From Caldifarciminota bacterium (GTDB taxonomy: Bacteria; Hydrothermota; UBA3072; B12-G15), in assembly GCA_021163525.1 (NCBI GenBank), contig JAGGTX010000107.1, positions 1-10,318 on the forward strand: a stretch of 10,318 bases of DNA, written 5' to 3'. Position numbers and translations under genes: made by a program. Of this stretch, positions 2,199-10,318 are shown piece after piece. Position 1 is the first letter of the stretch. The number at the start of each line of letters is the position of its first letter. The notes under the pieces were generated by a model. It was not told the DNA's origin and ran no database searches. It worked only from the letters and a program-made list of their open reading frames with translations.

Positions 2199-2584
2199 CT
2201 GCTCCAGAATGTCTGATAGAGAATAGCAACCGCTCCGGCAACTATACTCAAGAAACGGACCACATCACCGAGTGTGGCAGATGCGGAACGAGGAACAATA
2301 ATCACATCACCTGGTGATATCATAGGTATAGATTTTTTCTTCCCATTTATAAAGTCGTTCACATTAACAATTACAACATCACCATTTATACTGACGACCT
2401 TCACACGGTTCAGGTTAGCAGACCTTAAAGGACCACCTGCAAAGGAAATTGCCTCCACTATGTTTATATTTGGGGGAACTGCATAATGTCCAGGATTTCG
2501 CACCTCTCCCCACACCTGGATACTAACATATATCCCCGGCTGTTCATACCCGGTAACATTTAAGGCTATTAAAAGAATTAACAC
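2195..2584 (-). CDS. Minimal SLBB-domain polysaccharide-export protein
   Basis: The protein is about 129 residues from the GTG at 2584. It has a short hydrophobic N-terminus (2-9), one SLBB beta-grasp domain at about 21-98 (V-W-G-E-V-R-N-P-G near 24-32, an A-I-S-F-A-G-G-P segment, then P-G-D-V-I-I-V-P), and a C-terminal hydrophobic helix (about 105-124) ending in W-S-R. SLBB domains occur in Wza-type export proteins, and the co-transcribed Wzc homologue supports a role in polysaccharide export. Unlike Wza it lacks the N-terminal Poly_export domain and has a single SLBB domain. An in-frame GTG at 2590 would give 131 residues, but it directly abuts the -10 box and so would lie upstream of the predicted transcript start; I prefer the GTG at 2584, which coincides with the predicted +1. 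The stop overlaps the kinase start by 4 bases. The domain call is firm; the precise start and cell location (periplasm or outer membrane) are inferred. Confidence 0.85.
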   Translation of the reverse strand: MLILLIALNVTGYEQPGIYVSIQVWGEVRNPGHYAVPPNINIVEAISFAGGPLRSANLNRVKVVSINGDVVIVNVNDFINGKKKSIPMISPGDVIIVPRSASATLGDVVRFLSIVAGAVAILYQTFWSR

Positions 2585-2590
2585 ATCCAC

Positions 2591-2619
2591 ATTATAAGAG
2601 TTATCAGGGATTATGTCAA
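2591..2619 (-). promoter_or_regulatory. Consensus sigma-70 promoter of the exopolysaccharide operon
   Basis: Read on the minus strand, TTGACA (2619-2614) is followed after exactly 17 bases by TATAAT (2596-2591), a perfect match to the housekeeping consensus in both boxes. The expected +1 is six bases past the -10, which is base 2584, the G of an in-frame GTG codon. No Shine-Dalgarno sequence can exist on such a transcript, so it would be leaderless. The promoter is seen directly; transcription start and leaderless translation are inferred. Confidence 0.85.
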
Positions 2620-2660
2620 GTATTTAATTGAAAATCTATAAAACGAGCTAAGTGGATGAT

Positions 2661-2683
2661 TATCTTTTAATAATTAAAAGATA
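2661..2683. promoter_or_regulatory. 23-bp perfect palindrome between divergent promoters (candidate operator)
   Basis: TATCTTTTAA at 2661-2670 is repeated inverted as TTAAAAGATA at 2674-2683 around a 3-base centre. It lies 13 bases upstream of the PfkB -35 box and about 40 bases upstream of the minus-strand -35 box, in the only sizeable non-coding stretch of the window. The position fits an operator for a dimeric regulator acting on either or both transcription units. The regulator is not encoded in the window. The arms are almost all A/T with no GC core, so it makes a poor hairpin terminator, and no gene ends here. Confidence 0.6.
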
Positions 2684-2696
2684 GAGAAATTATATC

Positions 2697-2727
2697 TTGA
2701 CAGGATGGTTTTTACCGGTTGTATTAT
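2697..2727 (+). promoter_or_regulatory. Promoter of the PfkB-family gene
   Basis: A perfect -35 TTGACA (2697-2702) is followed by TATTAT (2722-2727) at a long 19-base spacing; a 17-base spacing would give the weaker TGTATT (2720-2725). Either -10 lies 3 to 5 bases before the ATG at 2731, so transcription would start at or within a few bases of the start codon. The exact -10 is uncertain. No Shine-Dalgarno sequence is within usable distance of 2731. Confidence 0.6.
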
Positions 2728-2730
2728 ACC

Positions 2731-3606
2731 ATGAGAATTGGTGTCTCTGGATGTCTGAGTTTCGACAAAATAGAGAGTCCTGAGTTCACCATCCAGTCAT
2801 GGGGAGGCATAGCCTACAATCTTCTTACACTGTCCTTACACAAAGATGCAGAGGTCTACCCTATCACATATGTGGGGCTTGATTTGAAAGAATCCCTTTT
2901 TAAACTCCTTCCTGAAAATGTATCAACTGAATGCATAAGGATTGCCAATGCGACCAACAGGAATACAATACATGTGCTCGGTGAAAACAGGTATGAATTT
3001 ATTACCCCATATGCACCTGAAATTAGTATTGAAATGTTATCATGCCCTGGAGAGATGGAACTCCTCATGCTCAATCCTGTTATGGGCTGGGAATTTTCCT
3101 TGGATACCATTGAGAGTATAGACAGGGTGAACTCAAGGATAAAAATGATTGATGTTCATAATCTAACACTCGGCAGGCATGAAAGCGGAAGGAGATACAG
3201 AATCTCGCTCGACAGGAAATTGGTGGATACAATCCTCAAAAAATTTCATATTATCCAGATGAACAGGAAGGAATACACTTCTTTTACAGGAAAGGAGTTC
3301 CCGGAAGGATTAAAAGACCTACCAGAGACGACCATTTTCTTTATTACACTTGCAAGTGAAGGGGCAACTGTGGTATATGACAGAAGGATTGAGACATTCA
3401 AACCACAGAGGGTTTTCAATCAGGATGTAATTGGTGCAGGGGATATATCAGGGAGTATTTTTGCCCTGTCCTTTCTTTGCACGGGTGACCCATTTATTTC
3501 CTGTGAGAGAACTGTCAGAATTATGGAGCATCTTGAGGGGAACAAACTTGAAGAAAAGATTGAATCAATAATGCAAATCCTTATTGACACCCTTAAATTA
3601 AAGTAA
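2731..3606 (+). CDS. PfkB/ribokinase-family carbohydrate kinase
   Basis: This is a 291-residue protein of usual family length, predicted to be cytoplasmic and to transfer the gamma-phosphate of ATP to a sugar or sugar-like substrate. The N-terminal substrate-lid signature is W-G-G-I-A-Y-N (24-30). The M-N-R-K-E-Y segment corresponds to the family N-x-x-E region. The C-terminal signature G-A-G-D lies at 235-238, with D238 as the expected catalytic base and the following G-S anion-hole region. The sequence is divergent from named members and the substrate cannot be read off. It is divergent from the exopolysaccharide operon and shares its control region, which would fit sugar supply or signalling for polymer synthesis, but that is inference. 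I chose ATG 2731 because V-S-G begins the first strand directly after it; a TTG at 2719 would add four residues but overlaps the promoter. The stop lies 12 bases before the next gene. Confidence 0.85.
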   Translation: MRIGVSGCLSFDKIESPEFTIQSWGGIAYNLLTLSLHKDAEVYPITYVGLDLKESLFKLLPENVSTECIRIANATNRNTIHVLGENRYEFITPYAPEISIEMLSCPGEMELLMLNPVMGWEFSLDTIESIDRVNSRIKMIDVHNLTLGRHESGRRYRISLDRKLVDTILKKFHIIQMNRKEYTSFTGKEFPEGLKDLPETTIFFITLASEGATVVYDRRIETFKPQRVFNQDVIGAGDISGSIFALSFLCTGDPFISCERTVRIMEHLEGNKLEEKIESIMQILIDTLKLK

Positions 3607-3612
3607 TAAAAT
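3584..3612 (+). promoter_or_regulatory. Promoter of the lipoprotein/secretion operon, inside the end of the PfkB gene
   Basis: TTGACA (3584-3589) lies within the last codons of the kinase gene, and TAAAAT (3607-3612), a 5/6 match to the -10 consensus, starts right after its TAA stop, at the optimal 17-base spacing. Six bases separate the -10 from the ATG at 3619, so the expected +1 is the A of the start codon. There is no Shine-Dalgarno sequence. This indicates that the downstream genes form their own transcription unit with a leaderless first gene, although read-through from the kinase gene is possible. Confidence 0.75.
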
Positions 3613-3618
3613 ACCTGT

Positions 3619-4344
3619 ATGAAAAGAACATATATTCTGATACTGCTCCTTACAGGATGCACAGGTAGTTACATTGGGTTGCCTGAGACCAGAATAGTAA
3701 ATGGTCCACCCTATGGGGCTGTTGTTGATAACAACACAATCAAGTTTGTCTGGGAGGGTAATGAATATACAACAGAGTTCAGGTATTGCATAGACACTAT
3801 TTTATCAGAATGGACTGATGCCGAATCCATAACCCTTATACTGGATGAAGGATGGCATACATTTTCCGTATATGGAAGAAACCTTATTGGAGAGATAGAG
3901 AAAACATACCCCAGAACAGCCTTTCTTGTTGATGGTATAAGGAACGGGTTCTCTCTGGCGCCCCTGCTGGATACAGTGAGTATCACAAGGCACTTTACTA
4001 TATTTTTGAGGGCAGAGACGCCATGTTTACACAGGTATGAACATTTTGTAATAAAATGGGACAAGTCAAAAGTAGAGTTTTCTGGTATTCTCTATGATTC
4101 ATCATCTTACTCTCCCAATGCTCTCCCTGTGATTATTACGAGGTCATATGAGGATTCTGCTGAGATTTTTTTGAGCATGCTGGGTGGAGACTTCCCTGAG
4201 CAGGACAGGGTAATATGTTCAATTGAATTTGTCCCCATTAACTCCGGGGAATGTGATTTTATTCTTGATGGAGAGATATTTGATTCAACCGGTACCACTA
4301 TACCTCTGGACACATTACAGGGAGGGAGAATTGTTATTCTTTAG
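3619..4344 (+). CDS. Lipoprotein with Ig-like and cohesin-like domains
   Basis: The 241-residue protein opens with K2-R3, a hydrophobic stretch and a lipobox L-T-G-C with C14 as the lipidation site, so it should be anchored in a membrane facing the periplasm or the cell surface. Residues about 22-105 resemble the Ig-like/FN3-like repeat common in secreted bacterial proteins (P-E-T-R-I near the start, F-V-W-E-G, a W-T-D, then G-W-H-T-F-S-V and a closing F-L-V-D). Residues about 113-241 resemble a cohesin fold: F-T-I-F-L-R-A, then I-K-W-D-K-S-K-V-E-F, then I-C-S-I-E-F-V-P, ending with a G-G-R-I-V-I-L strand. The next gene encodes a dockerin-like module, so this protein may be the anchored receptor. 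The start is set by the promoter at exact leaderless spacing. The lipobox is clear; the cohesin assignment is by pattern only. Confidence 0.8.
   Translation: MKRTYILILLLTGCTGSYIGLPETRIVNGPPYGAVVDNNTIKFVWEGNEYTTEFRYCIDTILSEWTDAESITLILDEGWHTFSVYGRNLIGEIEKTYPRTAFLVDGIRNGFSLAPLLDTVSITRHFTIFLRAETPCLHRYEHFVIKWDKSKVEFSGILYDSSSYSPNALPVIITRSYEDSAEIFLSMLGGDFPEQDRVICSIEFVPINSGECDFILDGEIFDSTGTTIPLDTLQGGRIVIL
4320..4325 (+). promoter_or_regulatory. Shine-Dalgarno site fixing a TTG start
   Basis: GGGAGG sits 5 bases before the TTG at 4331, inside the 3' end of the lipoprotein gene. It decides the start of the dockerin-bearing gene: the upstream in-frame ATG at 4223 lies 120 bases inside the lipoprotein gene and would put extra, non-leader-like residues ahead of the hydrophobic segment. 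Confidence 0.8.
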
Positions 4345-5581
4345 TCTTTTTGCTCAACTGTTAAACATTTCTGTAACGAAGTACAACTCAAAAAATCTGG
4401 TCTCTTTTGTAACCCCTGATTCATCCACAATTGAGAGTGTTATTGTTATTAGAAGGTATGATAGGTTTGCATATAACCCGTGTGAATGGACGAGAGTATG
4501 GAGAAATCCAGTTGACCCTTTCACCCCTTATTCCTTTGTTGATTCAGTCAACTTAAGGCCTGGAATAATCCAGAAATTCACATTCTTTACAATATACAAT
4601 GATGGTGAATATTTCAGGGATACCGTCTCTGTTCCAACACCTGTTCCGCCTGGAATTGTTGATATAACACCAGCAGGTGGATTGATTCGTGGAGAGAGAT
4701 TCCGTTTTATCTTCAATTCACCCATGGACACCACATACAGTGAAAGCAGTTTCATTTTGTTCTCCTTCCACGGTTCAGACACATTCTACTATGAAGGTAG
4801 TATGGAGGTAATATCCGATACTATTTACATATCTCCCTATCCCCTACCCCGTTCCTGTGATACCCTAACCATTATACTTAAAAGTTCCTATCTGAAGGAT
4901 ATATTTGGGAACTGTTTTGATGGGAATGGAAATTACATTGAGGAAGGTTCACCTGTGGATGACTGTTCTGTAAAGTGGCAGATTTCAGTCCTTGGTGATT
5001 TCAACCTTGATGGATATGTTGATTCAAAAGATTACACCGAATACTTCCGTGATGCCATGCTTTCAAACAATCCTGATTATGAAACAGGCCCTGTTGATGG
5101 AACCGTTCCATACCTTGTTTGTTACAGGGATGGGGAAATGGACATGAGTGACTTTATCGGTTTTTGCAGGATGTGGGAGTATTCCATAAGGAGAAAGGGG
5201 ATGGATATAAAAACAACAAATGGATATCCTGTTTTGTATTCCAGTGGATGTATAATCCCATTATACCAGGGCTTTATTGAGTTGTTCACATTGACACCTG
5301 TACAATCCCCATCCATTGTATTTTCAACTGAATTCAGGGATACATTTTATTATTTTATTCAGGTCAATGGTAATGAGCAGATACATGTTGCAAGACCTGT
5401 TGGACTGAGATACATGTCAATGGATGGTGAGGTCTTAGGGGAGATGAGATTTGGAAGCCCAAACAGTGTGGATATTAAAATTTACGACACACTTGGGAGA
5501 AGGGTGAATGCCCCCTTGAAAAATGGGATATATTTTATAAAATCAGGCATGGACAAAAAGAAGATGTGGGTGATTAAATGA
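4331..5581 (+). CDS. Secreted protein with SbsA-type Ig domain, dockerin-like module and T9SS-like C-terminal tail
   Basis: From the TTG at 4331 the product is 416 residues and overlaps the lipoprotein gene by 14 bases. It begins with a short hydrophobic leader (M-L-F-F-S-L-F-A) lacking basic residues. Residues about 107-218 look like a bacterial Ig-like SbsA (Big_5) domain: I-T-P-A-G-G, F-I-F-N-S-P-M-D, then D-I-F-G-N. Residues 221-286 form a dockerin-like pair of calcium loops: G-D-F-N-L-D-G-Y-V-D-S-K-D at 222-234, and a second loop R-D-G-E-M-D-M-S-D at 266-274, joined by a G-P-V-D-G-T-V-P segment. The C-terminus (about 389-416) has V-D-I-K-I-Y-D-T-L-G-R-R-V followed by N-G-I-Y-F-I and a basic end, like type IX secretion sorting tails. 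The middle region 287-385 is unassigned. Its likely role is an extracellular or surface scaffold partner, not an enzyme I can name. Confidence 0.8.
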   Translation: MLFFSLFAQLLNISVTKYNSKNLVSFVTPDSSTIESVIVIRRYDRFAYNPCEWTRVWRNPVDPFTPYSFVDSVNLRPGIIQKFTFFTIYNDGEYFRDTVSVPTPVPPGIVDITPAGGLIRGERFRFIFNSPMDTTYSESSFILFSFHGSDTFYYEGSMEVISDTIYISPYPLPRSCDTLTIILKSSYLKDIFGNCFDGNGNYIEEGSPVDDCSVKWQISVLGDFNLDGYVDSKDYTEYFRDAMLSNNPDYETGPVDGTVPYLVCYRDGEMDMSDFIGFCRMWEYSIRRKGMDIKTTNGYPVLYSSGCIIPLYQGFIELFTLTPVQSPSIVFSTEFRDTFYYFIQVNGNEQIHVARPVGLRYMSMDGEVLGEMRFGSPNSVDIKIYDTLGRRVNAPLKNGIYFIKSGMDKKKMWVIK

Positions 5582-6882
5582 TACTGCTCCTCTTTTCTCT
5601 CTGGACAGACGAAATTACGCTTGGCGCCAACCATGTCTCCTTCCTGCCACCTGCATCGTCAAATGCAGTTGGAGAGGATAATGGGAATGTTCTAATCACC
5701 TTCACAACAGGCCATACAAACCCCTATCTTGAAATATACTTTGCAATCATTGATGGTTCAGGGAGTGTTCTGAGAATGGTTAATGTTTCAAGGGCTGGGA
5801 CCCAATCCTCTCAATGGGCAGGCTATCCCAATGCAATATCCTTTGACACAACCTATTACTTTATCTGGGATGACAGGAGAATATCATATCATGAAATTGA
5901 GTTCCAGAACGAGATATATTACAGGGTATTCTATCCAGATGTGGCTGGAGGGACATGGCTTGGGATTCAGAATGCCACCTCAAGTGATGGCGAGTGGTCA
6001 ATCAATCCATCAGCAGCAAAACTTGGTGACAGGATTTATGTGGCATGGGAAGACACAAGGGACGGTTATGATGCAGTGTATTATTCCTACCTTGAGAATG
6101 GACTGTGGAGCAATGATTTTAAGGTTTCTGGTTCTATATATTATGCTGGTTATCCCTGTGTTGTTACTGGAAACTCAGAGGTGTTCATCTTTTATGAAGA
6201 GGTTCAGGATTCTTTCACACAGGTCAGGGCGTATAGCCCTATCAGGAATCAGTACTACACAATAAGTTTAGATGGAGAGGCCTACTCCCCTTCAGGCTCT
6301 GCATCAGGTGATGAAATCTGCGTTGTATGGGAACAGGTAGAAAATGGTGTTCCCCGTATATATTCAAGGGTTTTCAATTCTACATGGGGTGAGGCAGTAA
6401 AACTCACAACAAGTGGATACGGCGAAATGCCATGTGTTACAGGGAAAGATGGTATATTCTATTATGCCTGGGTTGAGGATGGCAATGTTGTTTTCAAATC
6501 AGATACCTCTGATTCAAGGGTGATGAATCAATCCTCATATAACTGCTTCAATCCCCATGTATATGCACTTGATAATGGGATTTTGTTCCTCTGCTGGAGT
6601 GGATACATAACAGGGGACATGGACGCAAAGATTTTTTACAGGGTATTTTCATCTTCAAAATCTCTATCAGAGAGTGCGTCATTTGTGGTCAGAGGGAGCA
6701 GGCTTTATCTTCCTGTCAGGAAGAGCAGGGATTACGAACTTTACACCATAGATGGCAGAAGGGTATCCACATTCTCGGGTCCATCCTTTGCATTTAATGG
6801 ACTTCCTCCAGGCATATATCTCCTGAGAACACGGGATTCAGGTAAAAGAAAAATTTACAGGGTTGTTTATCTGGGGGAATAG
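5578..6882 (+). CDS. Secreted sialidase/BNR-like beta-propeller protein with T9SS-like C-terminal tail
   Basis: The 434-residue product starts in an ATGA overlap with the previous stop and has GGGTGA (5568-5573) as ribosome site. It has a very short hydrophobic leader (2-9) without basic residues. The body is a repeat protein: an aromatic followed by acidic or small residues recurs at about positions 42, 97, 157, 206, 251, 298 and 340, in contexts such as I-W-D-D-R-R and V-A-W-E-D-T-R-D-G, each followed by an I-Y-Y or V-Y-Y strand. This period of roughly 45-60 residues is that of a six- or seven-bladed BNR/sialidase-like propeller. I see no sialidase catalytic set (Arg triad, Tyr/Glu nucleophile), so binding or a structural role is more likely than hydrolysis. 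Residues about 365-434 form a sorting-type tail with Y-E-L-Y-T-I-D-G-R-R-V and L-P-P-G-I-Y-L-L. It may be a substrate of the downstream peptidase. Confidence 0.8.
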   Translation: MILLLFSLWTDEITLGANHVSFLPPASSNAVGEDNGNVLITFTTGHTNPYLEIYFAIIDGSGSVLRMVNVSRAGTQSSQWAGYPNAISFDTTYYFIWDDRRISYHEIEFQNEIYYRVFYPDVAGGTWLGIQNATSSDGEWSINPSAAKLGDRIYVAWEDTRDGYDAVYYSYLENGLWSNDFKVSGSIYYAGYPCVVTGNSEVFIFYEEVQDSFTQVRAYSPIRNQYYTISLDGEAYSPSGSASGDEICVVWEQVENGVPRIYSRVFNSTWGEAVKLTTSGYGEMPCVTGKDGIFYYAWVEDGNVVFKSDTSDSRVMNQSSYNCFNPHVYALDNGILFLCWSGYITGDMDAKIFYRVFSSSKSLSESASFVVRGSRLYLPVRKSRDYELYTIDGRRVSTFSGPSFAFNGLPPGIYLLRTRDSGKRKIYRVVYLGE

Positions 6883-9800
6883 ATGATACTTATCCTTCTT
6901 TCATTCTACTCCATACTTGAATCAAACCAGAGTGGAATCACAATTGAGATTAACACAGACCATCTCATTTTCTCTCGTTACAATCCATCAGGCACAAAGG
7001 GAGAGGGCGAAATAAGCCTTCCCATTGGAATACCACAGGCAGGGGGGTATGTGCTCAAAGTGATGGATGGTAAAATACCTGAAGGCTCCATTCAAATAAA
7101 GGGCCCCTTCAATTTCAGGAAACACAGGATTATACTTCTTGATTTGAAGGAAAACATCGCTTCACATGGAAAAATTAAGGTCAGGATTGGGTTCACGCAC
7201 ACTCCCATTGAAATCAAGGGCAAAACAGACCATCTGTATGAACAAACGGTTATAAACGGGAAGACATCTATTAACTGGAAGATACTGAATAAGACCAAAT
7301 CATACCTTACATGGGAACCATCAGGGATAAGGCTCGGGCTTAAAGAGGGTGGTGTTTACAGGGTCTCAAGTTCCTATCTCTCAGCATCAGGGATTGTCTT
7401 TAATCCGCCTGTGGAAAGCATTTCCCTCTTATATAGAGGGAAGGCAGTTCCTATATGGGTTCATGATTTGAACAATGACGGAATCTTCAACTCCACTGAT
7501 TACTTTATCTTTTATTCGCCACCTGTTAAAAGTGATTATGACACCCTCACCTATTACTGGTTGAAAGAAGGTGTAGGTGCAGGATACATTGAACTATCTA
7601 TGGATACAACCTCTGCCCTTTTCATAACTGACTATATGGACAGTTTCTATGTGGACAGGGATTCCATTTTCTCAAGGTGTGCTGGTGAATTCCTCTATAA
7701 ACTTGATACCATGTTCACCTTCCAGTTTTCTGACACCTTTATGATGCCTGAGTATCCATGCTCCATAAAGGTCAGGCTCTTCAATCCATCCTCCAATTTT
7801 GAAACCCTGAGCATCTATGTGGATGAAAATATTGTTTACACAGGGCTTGTGTCGGGTAACAACTTCACATACCTCAGGCTTGAAAATCCTCTCTCCCCAT
7901 CTTCCATTGTGAAGATAGTTACAAGTGAATATTCATATCTTGACAGATTTTCAATAGCCTACAGAAGAAAACTTGAGTATTCGGGTGATTACTTTGTATT
8001 CAGGGCAGATACAAGGGGTAAAAAACATTTTGTTATTCACGGATGCCCCTATCCAGATCCAGTTATCCTGAGAATAGATGGTTACAGAATACAGCCCTCC
8101 GTTGATGAAGATTCTTCTGGTTATACTGTATCCTTTGCAGATACCATTATTCAGCCCTCCTGCTATGTGGTTTACACACCAGGCACAGAGAAAAAACCTG
8201 TCCAGGTAATCCAGGTTGATGACACAGGAACATTTGAAAACCTTGAAGATTCAGACATCCTTGTTATAACCCATCCTAACTTTTTACTACAGGCTGAGGA
8301 ATACAGGCGGTTGAAGGAACAGGATTCCCTGAGTGTTTCCATTTACACCACGGATGAAATCTACAATGCCTTCAATTACGGTGAGAAATCCCCCTATGCC
8401 ATAAAGAGTTTTCTCAAGTACCTCTTTGAAAACACCTCTACCCCACCCTCTTACCTGTTCTTCCTGGGAAAGGGTAGTTATGACCCCCAAAATATACTTG
8501 GTTCTGCCTCTGACCTTGTTCCAGTTATACTTCACAACACCCCTGAGGGTTATTTTGCAAGTGATTATCTGTATGCTTTTGTTAATGATGACCATTACCC
8601 TGACATTATTGTTGGCAGGCTTCCATGCCTCACACCTTCAGAGGCTGAAGGTTATCTGAACAAACTCAGATACGGAAGGTCTTCATCAGAGCCCTTTGAG
8701 AACGTTCTATTCTTTGGGGCTGATTACGCACTTCCAGGCGCAGATGTAGAGTCGAATAAACTTATAAAATCCATTGTCCCATCTGGTTACAGGATTGTGA
8801 GGGAGTATTCCAGAGAGGGAACAAGCATATGGGAAGAGGTGATAAATGCAGTAAATTCTGGTGTTTCAATTTTCAACTTCCATGGGCATGGGAGTGAAGA
8901 GGACCTTGGTGCAGGTAGATACTTCAGGGTATATGATATACCAAGGCTCAACAATTATGGAAAATTGTCCTTCATGATGGCATTCACATGTGCCAATGGT
9001 GTTATGGATGTGCCTGGATTCCGTTCAATAGGTGAACTCTCTGTTGTATTCCCTGGTGTTGGTATGATAGGGTCAATTGGCCCCTCTGGCTTCACCTATT
9101 TTGATGAAAATCTTGCATGTGATAGGTACTATCTGAATTCACTGCTCAAGAATGGAATTTCAAGGCTTGGTGATGTAACCTACTCCTACAACTTCACCCA
9201 TCCAAATTCCTACAATTCATATGTTTATCTTCTTATAGGAGACCCTGCCTATGAAATCTTTATACCATCAGATACACTCAACCTATCAGGTTATATGCAT
9301 GGTGATTCAGTCACTGTGAGTGCCTCTGTTTCTGGTGAGGGAATATGCTATTTCACACTTGTGGACTCCACAAACTGCATGGATTTCTCTGTTCAGGTTA
9401 AAAACGGGGTGGCTGAAACCACTTTCTATTATATGCCTTTATCTGAGAATCCAGGGCTTATTGCACTGGTGAAGGGTGATGGAATATTATTGAGTGGAGA
9501 GACCAGTATATACAGAAAAGACCTTTTCAGCAGGGTTGTTTTTGTTCCAGATACCCCTGATTATGGAGATACCCTCCACATTTTATTTATGCTTAAAACC
9601 CTACCTGACTCTGCAAAGTTGAACTGGGGTTATGGCAGTTCCCAGGCATCCTATTCTCCACTCACCCTATCAGGAGATACATTGAAAGGGGCTATTTATA
9701 TAGACAGGGAAAAATCAAACCTCGTTTTAAGGGCAATCCTGTTCGATTCAACCGGGATATACTACTCAAGGAGTTACAGTTTTTACATCAGGGAGAGGCC

Positions 9801-10318
9801 AAACCTGAAATTCACAGAACAGCCATTCATCTCAATTGAAGACACCACTGCCTGTATCAACCTTCATATAGTGAATTCAGGTGAAGAGGTTGTCAATACC
9901 TGTGAATACAGTGTTCTCATGTATATTTCTGGAACACCACTCCAGATTTACCGTGGCAATGCAGGAACACTTGAGCCTGGCAATTCAAAAACTGTGAAGG
10001 TTTTGCTTCCTGAGTCCCTTATTGCCCGTGTTGACACATTGAATTTCAGGGTTGACCTTGACCCTGCTGACAGGATAGATGAATCAAACGAGAATGATAA
10101 TGTCACCTATCTCAACCAGTTGAAGGGTATATTCTCTGTTGACCAGAACACGGATACAATTTTCAGGTATGGTGATATCAATATAAGGGTAGAATCAGGT
10201 GACTTCTCATCAAAATCACTGCTTCTAATACAGGAAACATCCTTTAAGGTTCCCTTCTCACAGCAGGTAGAACCTGTAAAAATAAATGGACTTATCAGAA
10301 CATTCTCATTGAGTTTCA
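6883..10318 (+). CDS. C25 (gingipain/PorU-like) cysteine peptidase with CARDB domain (3' end missing)
   Basis: The frame stays open from ATG 6883 to the window end, giving at least 1145 residues. GGGGGA (6873-6878) precedes the start and the upstream stop abuts it directly. After a short hydrophobic leader the first 440 residues are beta-rich and include D-L-N-N-D-G-I-F-N-S-T-D-Y at 195-207, matching the G-D-x-x-F-x-x-x-D-Y segment typical of PorU-like proteins. The C25 domain spans about 456-795: D-I-I-V-G-R-L-P at 574-581, H-G-H-G-S-E with catalytic H669, F-T-C-A-N-G with catalytic C703, and L-L-I-G-D-P-A-Y near 783-790. The His-Cys distance of 34 is close to that of gingipains. Residues about 973-1080 resemble a CARDB adhesion domain (I-V-N-S-G, L-E-P-G, D-E-S-N-E-N-D-N). 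Two upstream genes encode sorting-type tails, so a sortase or maturation protease is plausible; a secreted degradative protease is the alternative. No other type IX component is in view. Confidence 0.9.
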   Translation, partial: MILILLSFYSILESNQSGITIEINTDHLIFSRYNPSGTKGEGEISLPIGIPQAGGYVLKVMDGKIPEGSIQIKGPFNFRKHRIILLDLKENIASHGKIKVRIGFTHTPIEIKGKTDHLYEQTVINGKTSINWKILNKTKSYLTWEPSGIRLGLKEGGVYRVSSSYLSASGIVFNPPVESISLLYRGKAVPIWVHDLNNDGIFNSTDYFIFYSPPVKSDYDTLTYYWLKEGVGAGYIELSMDTTSALFITDYMDSFYVDRDSIFSRCAGEFLYKLDTMFTFQFSDTFMMPEYPCSIKVRLFNPSSNFETLSIYVDENIVYTGLVSGNNFTYLRLENPLSPSSIVKIVTSEYSYLDRFSIAYRRKLEYSGDYFVFRADTRGKKHFVIHGCPYPDPVILRIDGYRIQPSVDEDSSGYTVSFADTIIQPSCYVVYTPGTEKKPVQVIQVDDTGTFENLEDSDILVITHPNFLLQAEEYRRLKEQDSLSVSIYTTDEIYNAFNYGEKSPYAIKSFLKYLFENTSTPPSYLFFLGKGSYDPQNILGSASDLVPVILHNTPEGYFASDYLYAFVNDDHYPDIIVGRLPCLTPSEAEGYLNKLRYGRSSSEPFENVLFFGADYALPGADVESNKLIKSIVPSGYRIVREYSREGTSIWEEVINAVNSGVSIFNFHGHGSEEDLGAGRYFRVYDIPRLNNYGKLSFMMAFTCANGVMDVPGFRSIGELSVVFPGVGMIGSIGPSGFTYFDENLACDRYYLNSLLKNGISRLGDVTYSYNFTHPNSYNSYVYLLIGDPAYEIFIPSDTLNLSGYMHGDSVTVSASVSGEGICYFTLVDSTNCMDFSVQVKNGVAETTFYYMPLSENPGLIALVKGDGILLSGETSIYRKDLFSRVVFVPDTPDYGDTLHILFMLKTLPDSAKLNWGYGSSQASYSPLTLSGDTLKGAIYIDREKSNLVLRAILFDSTGIYYSRSYSFYIRERPNLKFTEQPFISIEDTTACINLHIVNSGEEVVNTCEYSVLMYISGTPLQIYRGNAGTLEPGNSKTVKVLLPESLIARVDTLNFRVDLDPADRIDESNENDNVTYLNQLKGIFSVDQNTDTIFRYGDINIRVESGDFSSKSLLLIQETSFKVPFSQQVEPVKINGLIRTFSLSF

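Follow-up and report, generated by a model that had tools for sequence, protein, structure and literature searches.

Judging by its upstream sequence, about one in every four to five transcript-opening genes of an uncultured Caldifarciminota bacterium appears to have an mRNA that begins at the start codon and carries no ribosome-binding site. The case arose from a 10,318-nucleotide (nt) stretch of DNA (the window), which is one contig (JAGGTX010000107.1, or C26) of the 1.38-Mb assembly GCA_021163525.1 (244 contigs, 75.6% complete) and holds three genes with a TTGACA box shortly before the start codon. We put the probability at about 0.88 that genes of this kind are leaderless, with a promoter fixed so that the transcript would begin on the start codon. 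A sequence-only reading of the window had proposed a split between leaderless first genes and internal genes led by Shine–Dalgarno (SD) sites; that observation is partly confirmed, holding in the main, and extends genome-wide.

First and operon-internal genes across the genome

Gene starts were chosen solely by codon usage and the type of start codon, in a discovery sample (A; 50 contigs, 357,253 bases) and a held-out sample (B; 34 contigs, 198,670 bases), with the window in neither and contigs under 3 kb removed (10 of 60 from A, 6 of 40 from B). A gene counted as first if its upstream neighbour was divergent or, when codirectional, lay at a distance of over 60 nt, and as internal if a codirectional neighbour lay within 25 nt; these counts leave out 111 of the 557 called genes (88 at contig edges and 23 with a codirectional distance of 26–60 nt). 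We call a gene TA-led if TANNNT starts at −13 to −11, that is, ends 5–7 nt before the start. In sample A, 24/78 first genes carry this signal compared with 4/207 internal genes (p = 1.4e-11); in sample B the figures are 10/44 and 3/117 (p = 1.5e-4), giving 34/122 and 7/324 when pooled over the 84 contigs. At exactly −12, TANNNT preceded 16/78 and 7/44 first genes, compared with 0/207 and 1/117 internal genes. This sample of the genome thus bears out the proposed enrichment of −10 boxes at the predicted register.

SD words preceded 142/207 (A) and 73/117 (B) internal genes (215/324 pooled), and never coincided with the TA signal in a first gene (0/78 in A, 0/44 in B), so that none of the 34 TA-led genes has one. 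The 122 first genes divide into 34 that are TA-led, 49 that are SD-led and 39 with neither crude signal. Of 15 relatives searched, seven gave a 16S match, and all five whose 16S gene is full length have the anti-SD CCTCCTTT at its 3′ end, following GGATCA in four of them and GGAACA in the fifth. These internal-gene counts and the anti-SD of the relatives do not fit an FCB-type genome in which SD sites go largely unused.

Two further promoter marks accompany the TA signal. TTGACA, which played no part in choosing the 34 TA-led genes, lies at −36 to −33 with at least 5/6 matches in 26 of them (19 perfect), compared with 0/49 SD-led first genes, 3/39 first genes with neither signal, 12/324 internal genes and 0/34 at one control offset. 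A pyrimidine at −1 is found in 29/34 TA-led genes, compared with 24/49 SD-led first genes, 22/39 with neither signal and 125/324 internal genes. Bacterial transcripts tend to begin on a purine preceded by a pyrimidine; the bias thus suggests that +1 is the start codon and would lend indirect support to an mRNA 5′ end at that codon. With the −10 signal in 34/122 first genes, and the −35 as well in 26/122, the sequence-only suggestion that leaderless mRNAs are a routine design here was fair.

A scan of the whole genome for an exact word points to the same register. TTGACA-N17-TANNNT-N6-ATG gave 18 matches, compared with 0 for its reversed control, and the same word with N7–N30 in place of N6 gave 39 matches over 24 spacings, or 1.6 per spacing; with one mismatch allowed, there were 44 matches compared with 5. 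The ATG opens a frame of at least 118 amino acids at 17 of the 18 exact sites, the remaining frame having only 14 codons. Profile scans covered nine of the 18 proteins (GlnA, PurD, MlaE, RsmD, a rhomboid protease, a glycosyltransferase, an HTH/M78 regulator, a metallophosphoesterase and a solute-binding-protein-like product). Position 1 of the Pfam profile falls on residue 1 in PurD, RsmD (PF03602) and the metallophosphoesterase, and profile position 2 falls on residue 2 in GlnA (TIGR00653). Two exact flush promoters belong to a divergent pair of genes lying within about 110 bp (L014/L015, G000:C198:17443-17549); the products are a coiled-coil protein that looks chemoreceptor-like by eye and an SBP_bac_3 protein.

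The distance from promoter to start codon is bimodal. We counted as promoter-bearing any start with TTGACA (at least 5/6), a spacer of 16–18 nt and TANNNT ending 0–40 nt upstream, which gave 69 of 497 starts in the own-genome sample. At gaps of 4–9 nt there are 34 starts, 22 of them at exactly 6 nt and none with an SD; at gaps of 12 nt or more there are 30, 24 of them with an SD, often AAAAAGGAGG near the start. The other five have a gap of 3 or 10. Gaps of 14–16 are empty, a hole that is suggestive only because 8, 11, 24 and 25 are empty as well.

The three promoter–start junctions of the window

The window contains a divergent pair, formed by an SLBB polysaccharide-export-like gene (minus strand) and a PfkB-like gene (plus strand), followed on the plus strand by genes at 3619–4344, 4331, 5578 and 6883. 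The number of sigma-70-like sites is at chance level, 29 compared with a shuffle mean of 27.8. The two best of the 29 are 2619→2591 (minus, 12/12 consensus) and 3584→3612 (plus, 11/12), each of which leads flush into a gene with the exact geometry that the sequence-only reading described: a 17-base spacer, 6 bases and then the start codon.

The first of these reads TTGACA-N17-TATAAT-N6-GTG at 2584(−). Its −35 lies at 2614–2619, its −10 at 2591–2596 and the GTG, the predicted +1 of the transcript, at 2582–2584, opening the SLBB polysaccharide-export-like protein (2584–2195, minus strand). An alternative upstream GTG at 2590(−) reads TTG in a same-genus relative and touches the −10 box, so GTG 2584 is the likelier start. 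The second reads TTGACA-N17-TAAAAT-N6-ATG, with the −35 at 3584–3589 (+), within the 3′-terminal part of the 2731 gene, and the −10 at 3607–3612 (+). It precedes a predicted leaderless gene at 3619–4344 (+) that has no Pfam match, a signal-like N terminus by eye, and was missed by the gene finder used here. Because it starts 12 nt past the stop of the 2731 gene, it would fail our first-gene rule. The earlier treatment of all three genes as first genes therefore applies to 3619 only if its own promoter is used.

At the PfkB-like gene (2731–3606, plus strand; predicted leaderless), the claim of a TTGACA with a near-start −10 stands in part, having stood in full at 2584(−) and 3619(+). The TTGACA is present at 2697–2702, at −34 from the ATG, a distance 1 nt less than at the other two. 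The hexamer at spacer 17 is TGTATT, and the nearest −10-like hexamer, TATTAT at 2722–2727, is the probable −10 in an imperfect register, with a 19-nt spacer and 3 nt to the ATG. The Pfam PfkB match of the product scores 20.8 bits, under the cut-off of 25.8; its distant PfkB relatives are 28–35% identical and were matched in 8 of 30 genomes, its own included.

All three promoters are kept in a same-genus genome (G123) that is about 90% identical over the stretch. The three −35 boxes and the two in-register −10 boxes match at 6/6 positions each, and 2720–2730 at 11/11, compared with 60/78 in the middle of the divergent spacer. Coming from a single relative, this conservation may be taken as supportive, not decisive.

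Anti-SD pairing agrees with the earlier statement that the three genes have no SD, at +0.9 (2584), −2.8 (2731) and −0.5 (3619) kcal/mol. The internal genes reach −11.5 (66(−)), −11.4 (4331), −8.4 (6883), −5.2 (2198(−)) and −3.7 (5578) kcal/mol. Random 17-mers have quantiles of −6.9 (5%), −6.1 (10%), −4.0 (25%) and −2.4 (50%) kcal/mol, so only 66(−), 4331 and 6883 lie beyond them; 2198(−) and 5578 do not stand out. The strong GGAGG-like sites that had been assigned to the internal genes are thus upheld at those three: GGGAGGAAAG at 70–79 (−) for the gene starting at 66, GGAGG at 4321–4325 (+) for the gene starting at TTG 4331 (SD and TTG both kept in the relative), and GGGGGA at 6873–6878 (+), SD-like, before the 6883 gene, which has a Peptidase C25 domain. 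The site of the 5578 gene, GGGTGA at 5568–5573 (+), is weak, and its start overlaps the previous stop as ATGA.

Two observations concern the neighbouring genes. On the minus strand, 63–2590 has the look of an exopolysaccharide export operon, with the SLBB protein beside a fused Wzz/GNVR chain-length determinant and ATPase and with 4-nt gene overlaps. On the plus strand, the proteins of 4331–5581 and 6883–10317 both contain stretches of dockerin/EF-hand-like appearance (GDFNLDGYVDSKDY; DLNNDGIFNSTDY), with no Pfam match there.

Competing explanations

If these genes are leaderless, a housekeeping-type (main) sigma factor would recognise TTGACA-N16..18-TANNNT and, with the −10 ending about 6 nt before the start, polymerase would begin on the A or G of the codon or 1–2 nt from it. 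The mRNA would thus begin 5′-AUG or 5′-GUG, and the ribosome would recognise this terminal start codon without SD pairing, by 70S binding as in other bacteria; we infer the transcription start position, the lack of a leader and 70S initiation alike. Later operon genes would use GGAGG sites paired to an ordinary anti-SD, or stop–start overlaps, and the other class of first genes would likewise use GGAGG sites. The genome would thereby keep two designs, one with no leader and one with a short A-rich leader just fitting an SD. Lacking an SD, the 3619 gene would be poorly translated from PfkB-like read-through, and its output would follow its own promoter.

An explanation that overlaps this one, which itself allows a wobble of 1–2 nt, is that transcripts start 1–5 nt before the codon and have very short, SD-less leaders. 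Transcription start-site choice usually wobbles by 1–2 nt, and among the 34 promoter-bearing starts in the 4–9 nt class, 12 have a gap that differs from 6. The other 22 sit at exactly 6 nt, and the −1 pyrimidine in 29/34 TA-led first genes fits the start codon as +1; we regard such near-leaderless transcripts as unlikely.

Mis-assigned codons would leave ordinary leaders, with transcripts starting at these promoters and translation beginning at an SD-led codon farther downstream. The starts were indeed called computationally, and an in-frame start preceded by an SD-like word lies within the next 30 codons in 12/34 TA-led genes. Such starts are background, however, because 94 of 324 internal genes show them too (p = 0.44). 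The alignment of RsmD by TIGR00095 only from model position 13 could suggest a wrong start, though if anything it hints at an upstream and not a downstream one, and the profiles of PurD, RsmD (PF03602) and the metallophosphoesterase begin at residue 1 and leave no room downstream. Nor does a downstream start require a peak at one fixed gap to the ATG, and we consider mis-assignment very improbable. Least probable of all is that the boxes are chance matches, with farther promoters and the AT-rich non-SD ribosome sites described in the FCB group (PMC9581028). In its favour are the A+T content of the sampled genome, about 58%, and the rate of TANNNT at other offsets, about a third of that at the peak. 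Against it, the reversed controls and the other offsets stay far below the signal, TTGACA stands at −36 to −33 in 26/34 TA-led genes, other genes make normal use of SD sites and relatives have an intact anti-SD.

Several findings weigh against the leaderless reading or narrow it. Because 49/122 first genes are SD-led and 39/122 have neither signal, leaderless genes would be one of two main first-gene designs, not the rule, and the 'clean split' of the sequence-only reading was overstated. Six other offsets gave means of 6.8/78 (A) and 3.2/44 (B) first genes, so part of the TA signal is AT-rich background, and perhaps about 10 of the 34 TA-led first genes are chance matches in AT-rich upstream regions. 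The −35 is missing in 8/34 TA-led first genes, the 2731(+) junction is without an in-register −10, RsmD is aligned by TIGR00095 and NF008157 only from model position 13, and the genome's own 16S gene is absent from the assembly searched.

Spread over the phylum and relation to known systems

Across 147 phylum genomes, the N6 word gave 1086 matches, compared with 27 for the reversed control and a mean of 326 per spacing for N7–N30, a 3.3-fold enrichment at the register. At least one match was found in 132/147 genomes, and the genome's own per-spacing mean was exceeded in 125/147. The density was 13.0 per Mb in the own genome, 3.45 in the phylum and 0.84 in 49 genomes of other lineages, sets that differ in G+C and were not matched for it. 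A 50th genome of another lineage (G169, bacterium isolate Yes71-08, the genome of locus L192) was left out of this comparison, with 27 matches coming mostly from one repeated element. There, a near-identical TTGACA-N17-TACCAT-N6-ATG makes up most of the matches, many at contig ends; the flush promoter probably belongs to a mobile element.

Other results on the phylum count on the opposite side. In the scan of the 147 genomes, families f17 and f23 had zero N6 word matches, and f7, f8, f11, f14 and f21 showed no register enrichment (ratios of 0.8–1.2). In the phylum-member samples of 90–100 kb used for gap and gene-level tests, the TA test was negative in G007 (2/20 first, 4/61 internal genes) and non-significant in G122 (p = 0.11) and G136 (p = 0.17); an SD word precedes one of the six G122 starts with a gap of 6–8, and one G007 start at a gap of 15 lacks an SD. 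In one f17 genome (G043, G+C 54%; L301–L305), the TA signal was present in 16/41 first compared with 4/35 internal genes (p = 0.009), strongest in first genes at gaps of 6–8 nt, with a TTGACA promoter at only 1/84 starts; this family may keep a flush −10 without the TTGACA box, a Deinococcus-like version. As a negative control, an E. coli sample had the TA signal in 5/49 first and 0/29 internal genes (p = 0.15), with 3/86 starts promoter-bearing and none at a gap below 30.

The gap trend in G122, G007 and G136 is similar to that of the own genome and less clean. G122 has six starts at gaps of 6–8 and four at 18–24, all four with an SD; G007 has five SD-less starts, three at 5–6 and one each at 15 and 17, besides seven with an SD at 17–38; and G136 has ten SD-less starts at 1–12 and six at 24–40, four of them with an SD. 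We give even odds to a phylum-wide two-state design, in which strong consensus promoters stand either flush with the start or just far enough away for an A-rich leader with one SD, and in which leaders above zero but too short for an SD appear as if selected against.

In an RpoB tree without an outgroup (the domain was found in 26 of 30 genomes), the phylum's 16 rows and 'Desulfuromonas sp. SDB' stand apart from nine other named rows (support 100/99), with 80/86 at the fork of SDB itself. NCBI files SDB under Thermodesulfobacteriota; GTDB presumably places it in WOR-3 (NCBI name Caldifarciminota). On the tree and this placement together, the phylum is probably WOR-3/Caldifarciminota. Should it be WOR-3, it has an isolate in strain sy37, whose G+C of 60.6% is high (PMC12285271). 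A scan of genome contigs with mlaE gave matches in other phyla among the records available.

Much of this pattern is already described: −10-flush leaderless genes, operons with leaderless proximal and SD-led distal genes, and genomes mixing the two types are all reported in the literature (PMC3160421, PMC12340547, PMC9581028). TA-led leaderless genes, which have a TA-like −10 signal some 10 bp before the start and no SD, were reported in 207 of 953 genomes, belonging to listed phyla and to one unclassified group; leaderlessness is open only to promoter-proximal genes, distal ones being usually SD-led (Zheng et al. 2011, PMC3160421). The genes described here share with them the −10 near the start, the lack of an SD and the SD-led operon-distal genes. 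That account stresses the TA signal, and in Lactococcus describes a TG before it and a −35 that is probably missing, whereas most cases here have a near-perfect −35; its results section on these genes does not name the present lineage. The split between leaderless proximal and SD-led distal genes that it cites for the archaeon Sulfolobus solfataricus is partial here and comes with bacterial −35 and −10 boxes.

In Deinococcus-Thermus, TANNNT about 6–7 bp before the open reading frame accompanies leaderless expression beside GGAG sites (Zhong et al. 2025, PMC12340547), which resembles the flush TANNNT and the coexistence of leaderless and SD-type genes here. By contrast, TTGACA promoters were found at 0/80 starts in a 100-kb sample of D. 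radiodurans MP1, compared with 69/497 here; the flush TA signal in that sample was in 7/48 first and 0/26 internal genes (p = 0.047). GeneMarkS-2 predicted leaderless transcription in 21.6% of bacterial species (quoted in PMC9581028), and the present genome, like those, would combine leaderless and SD-led genes; compared with them it offers no new mechanism, and its lineage and strong −35 are additional. What is added here is a lineage, a near-perfect in-register −35 and a bimodal leader. Searches of an open-access library turned up no paper joining 'leaderless' with WOR-3, Stahlbacteria, Caldifarciminota, Hydrothermota or Stahliibacteriota, a result that bears only on these names; the one hit for Stahlbacteria concerns a Gracilibacterium and lacks that name.

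A mostly uncultured and little-studied phylum would thus join the lineages with apparently routine leaderless genes. The consensus −35 boxes allow leaderless starts to be predicted from sequence, and gene finders that rely only on SD sites may misplace the start codon in a fifth to a quarter of first genes. With its two modes, the gap offers a sequence-level test for selection against very short leaders.

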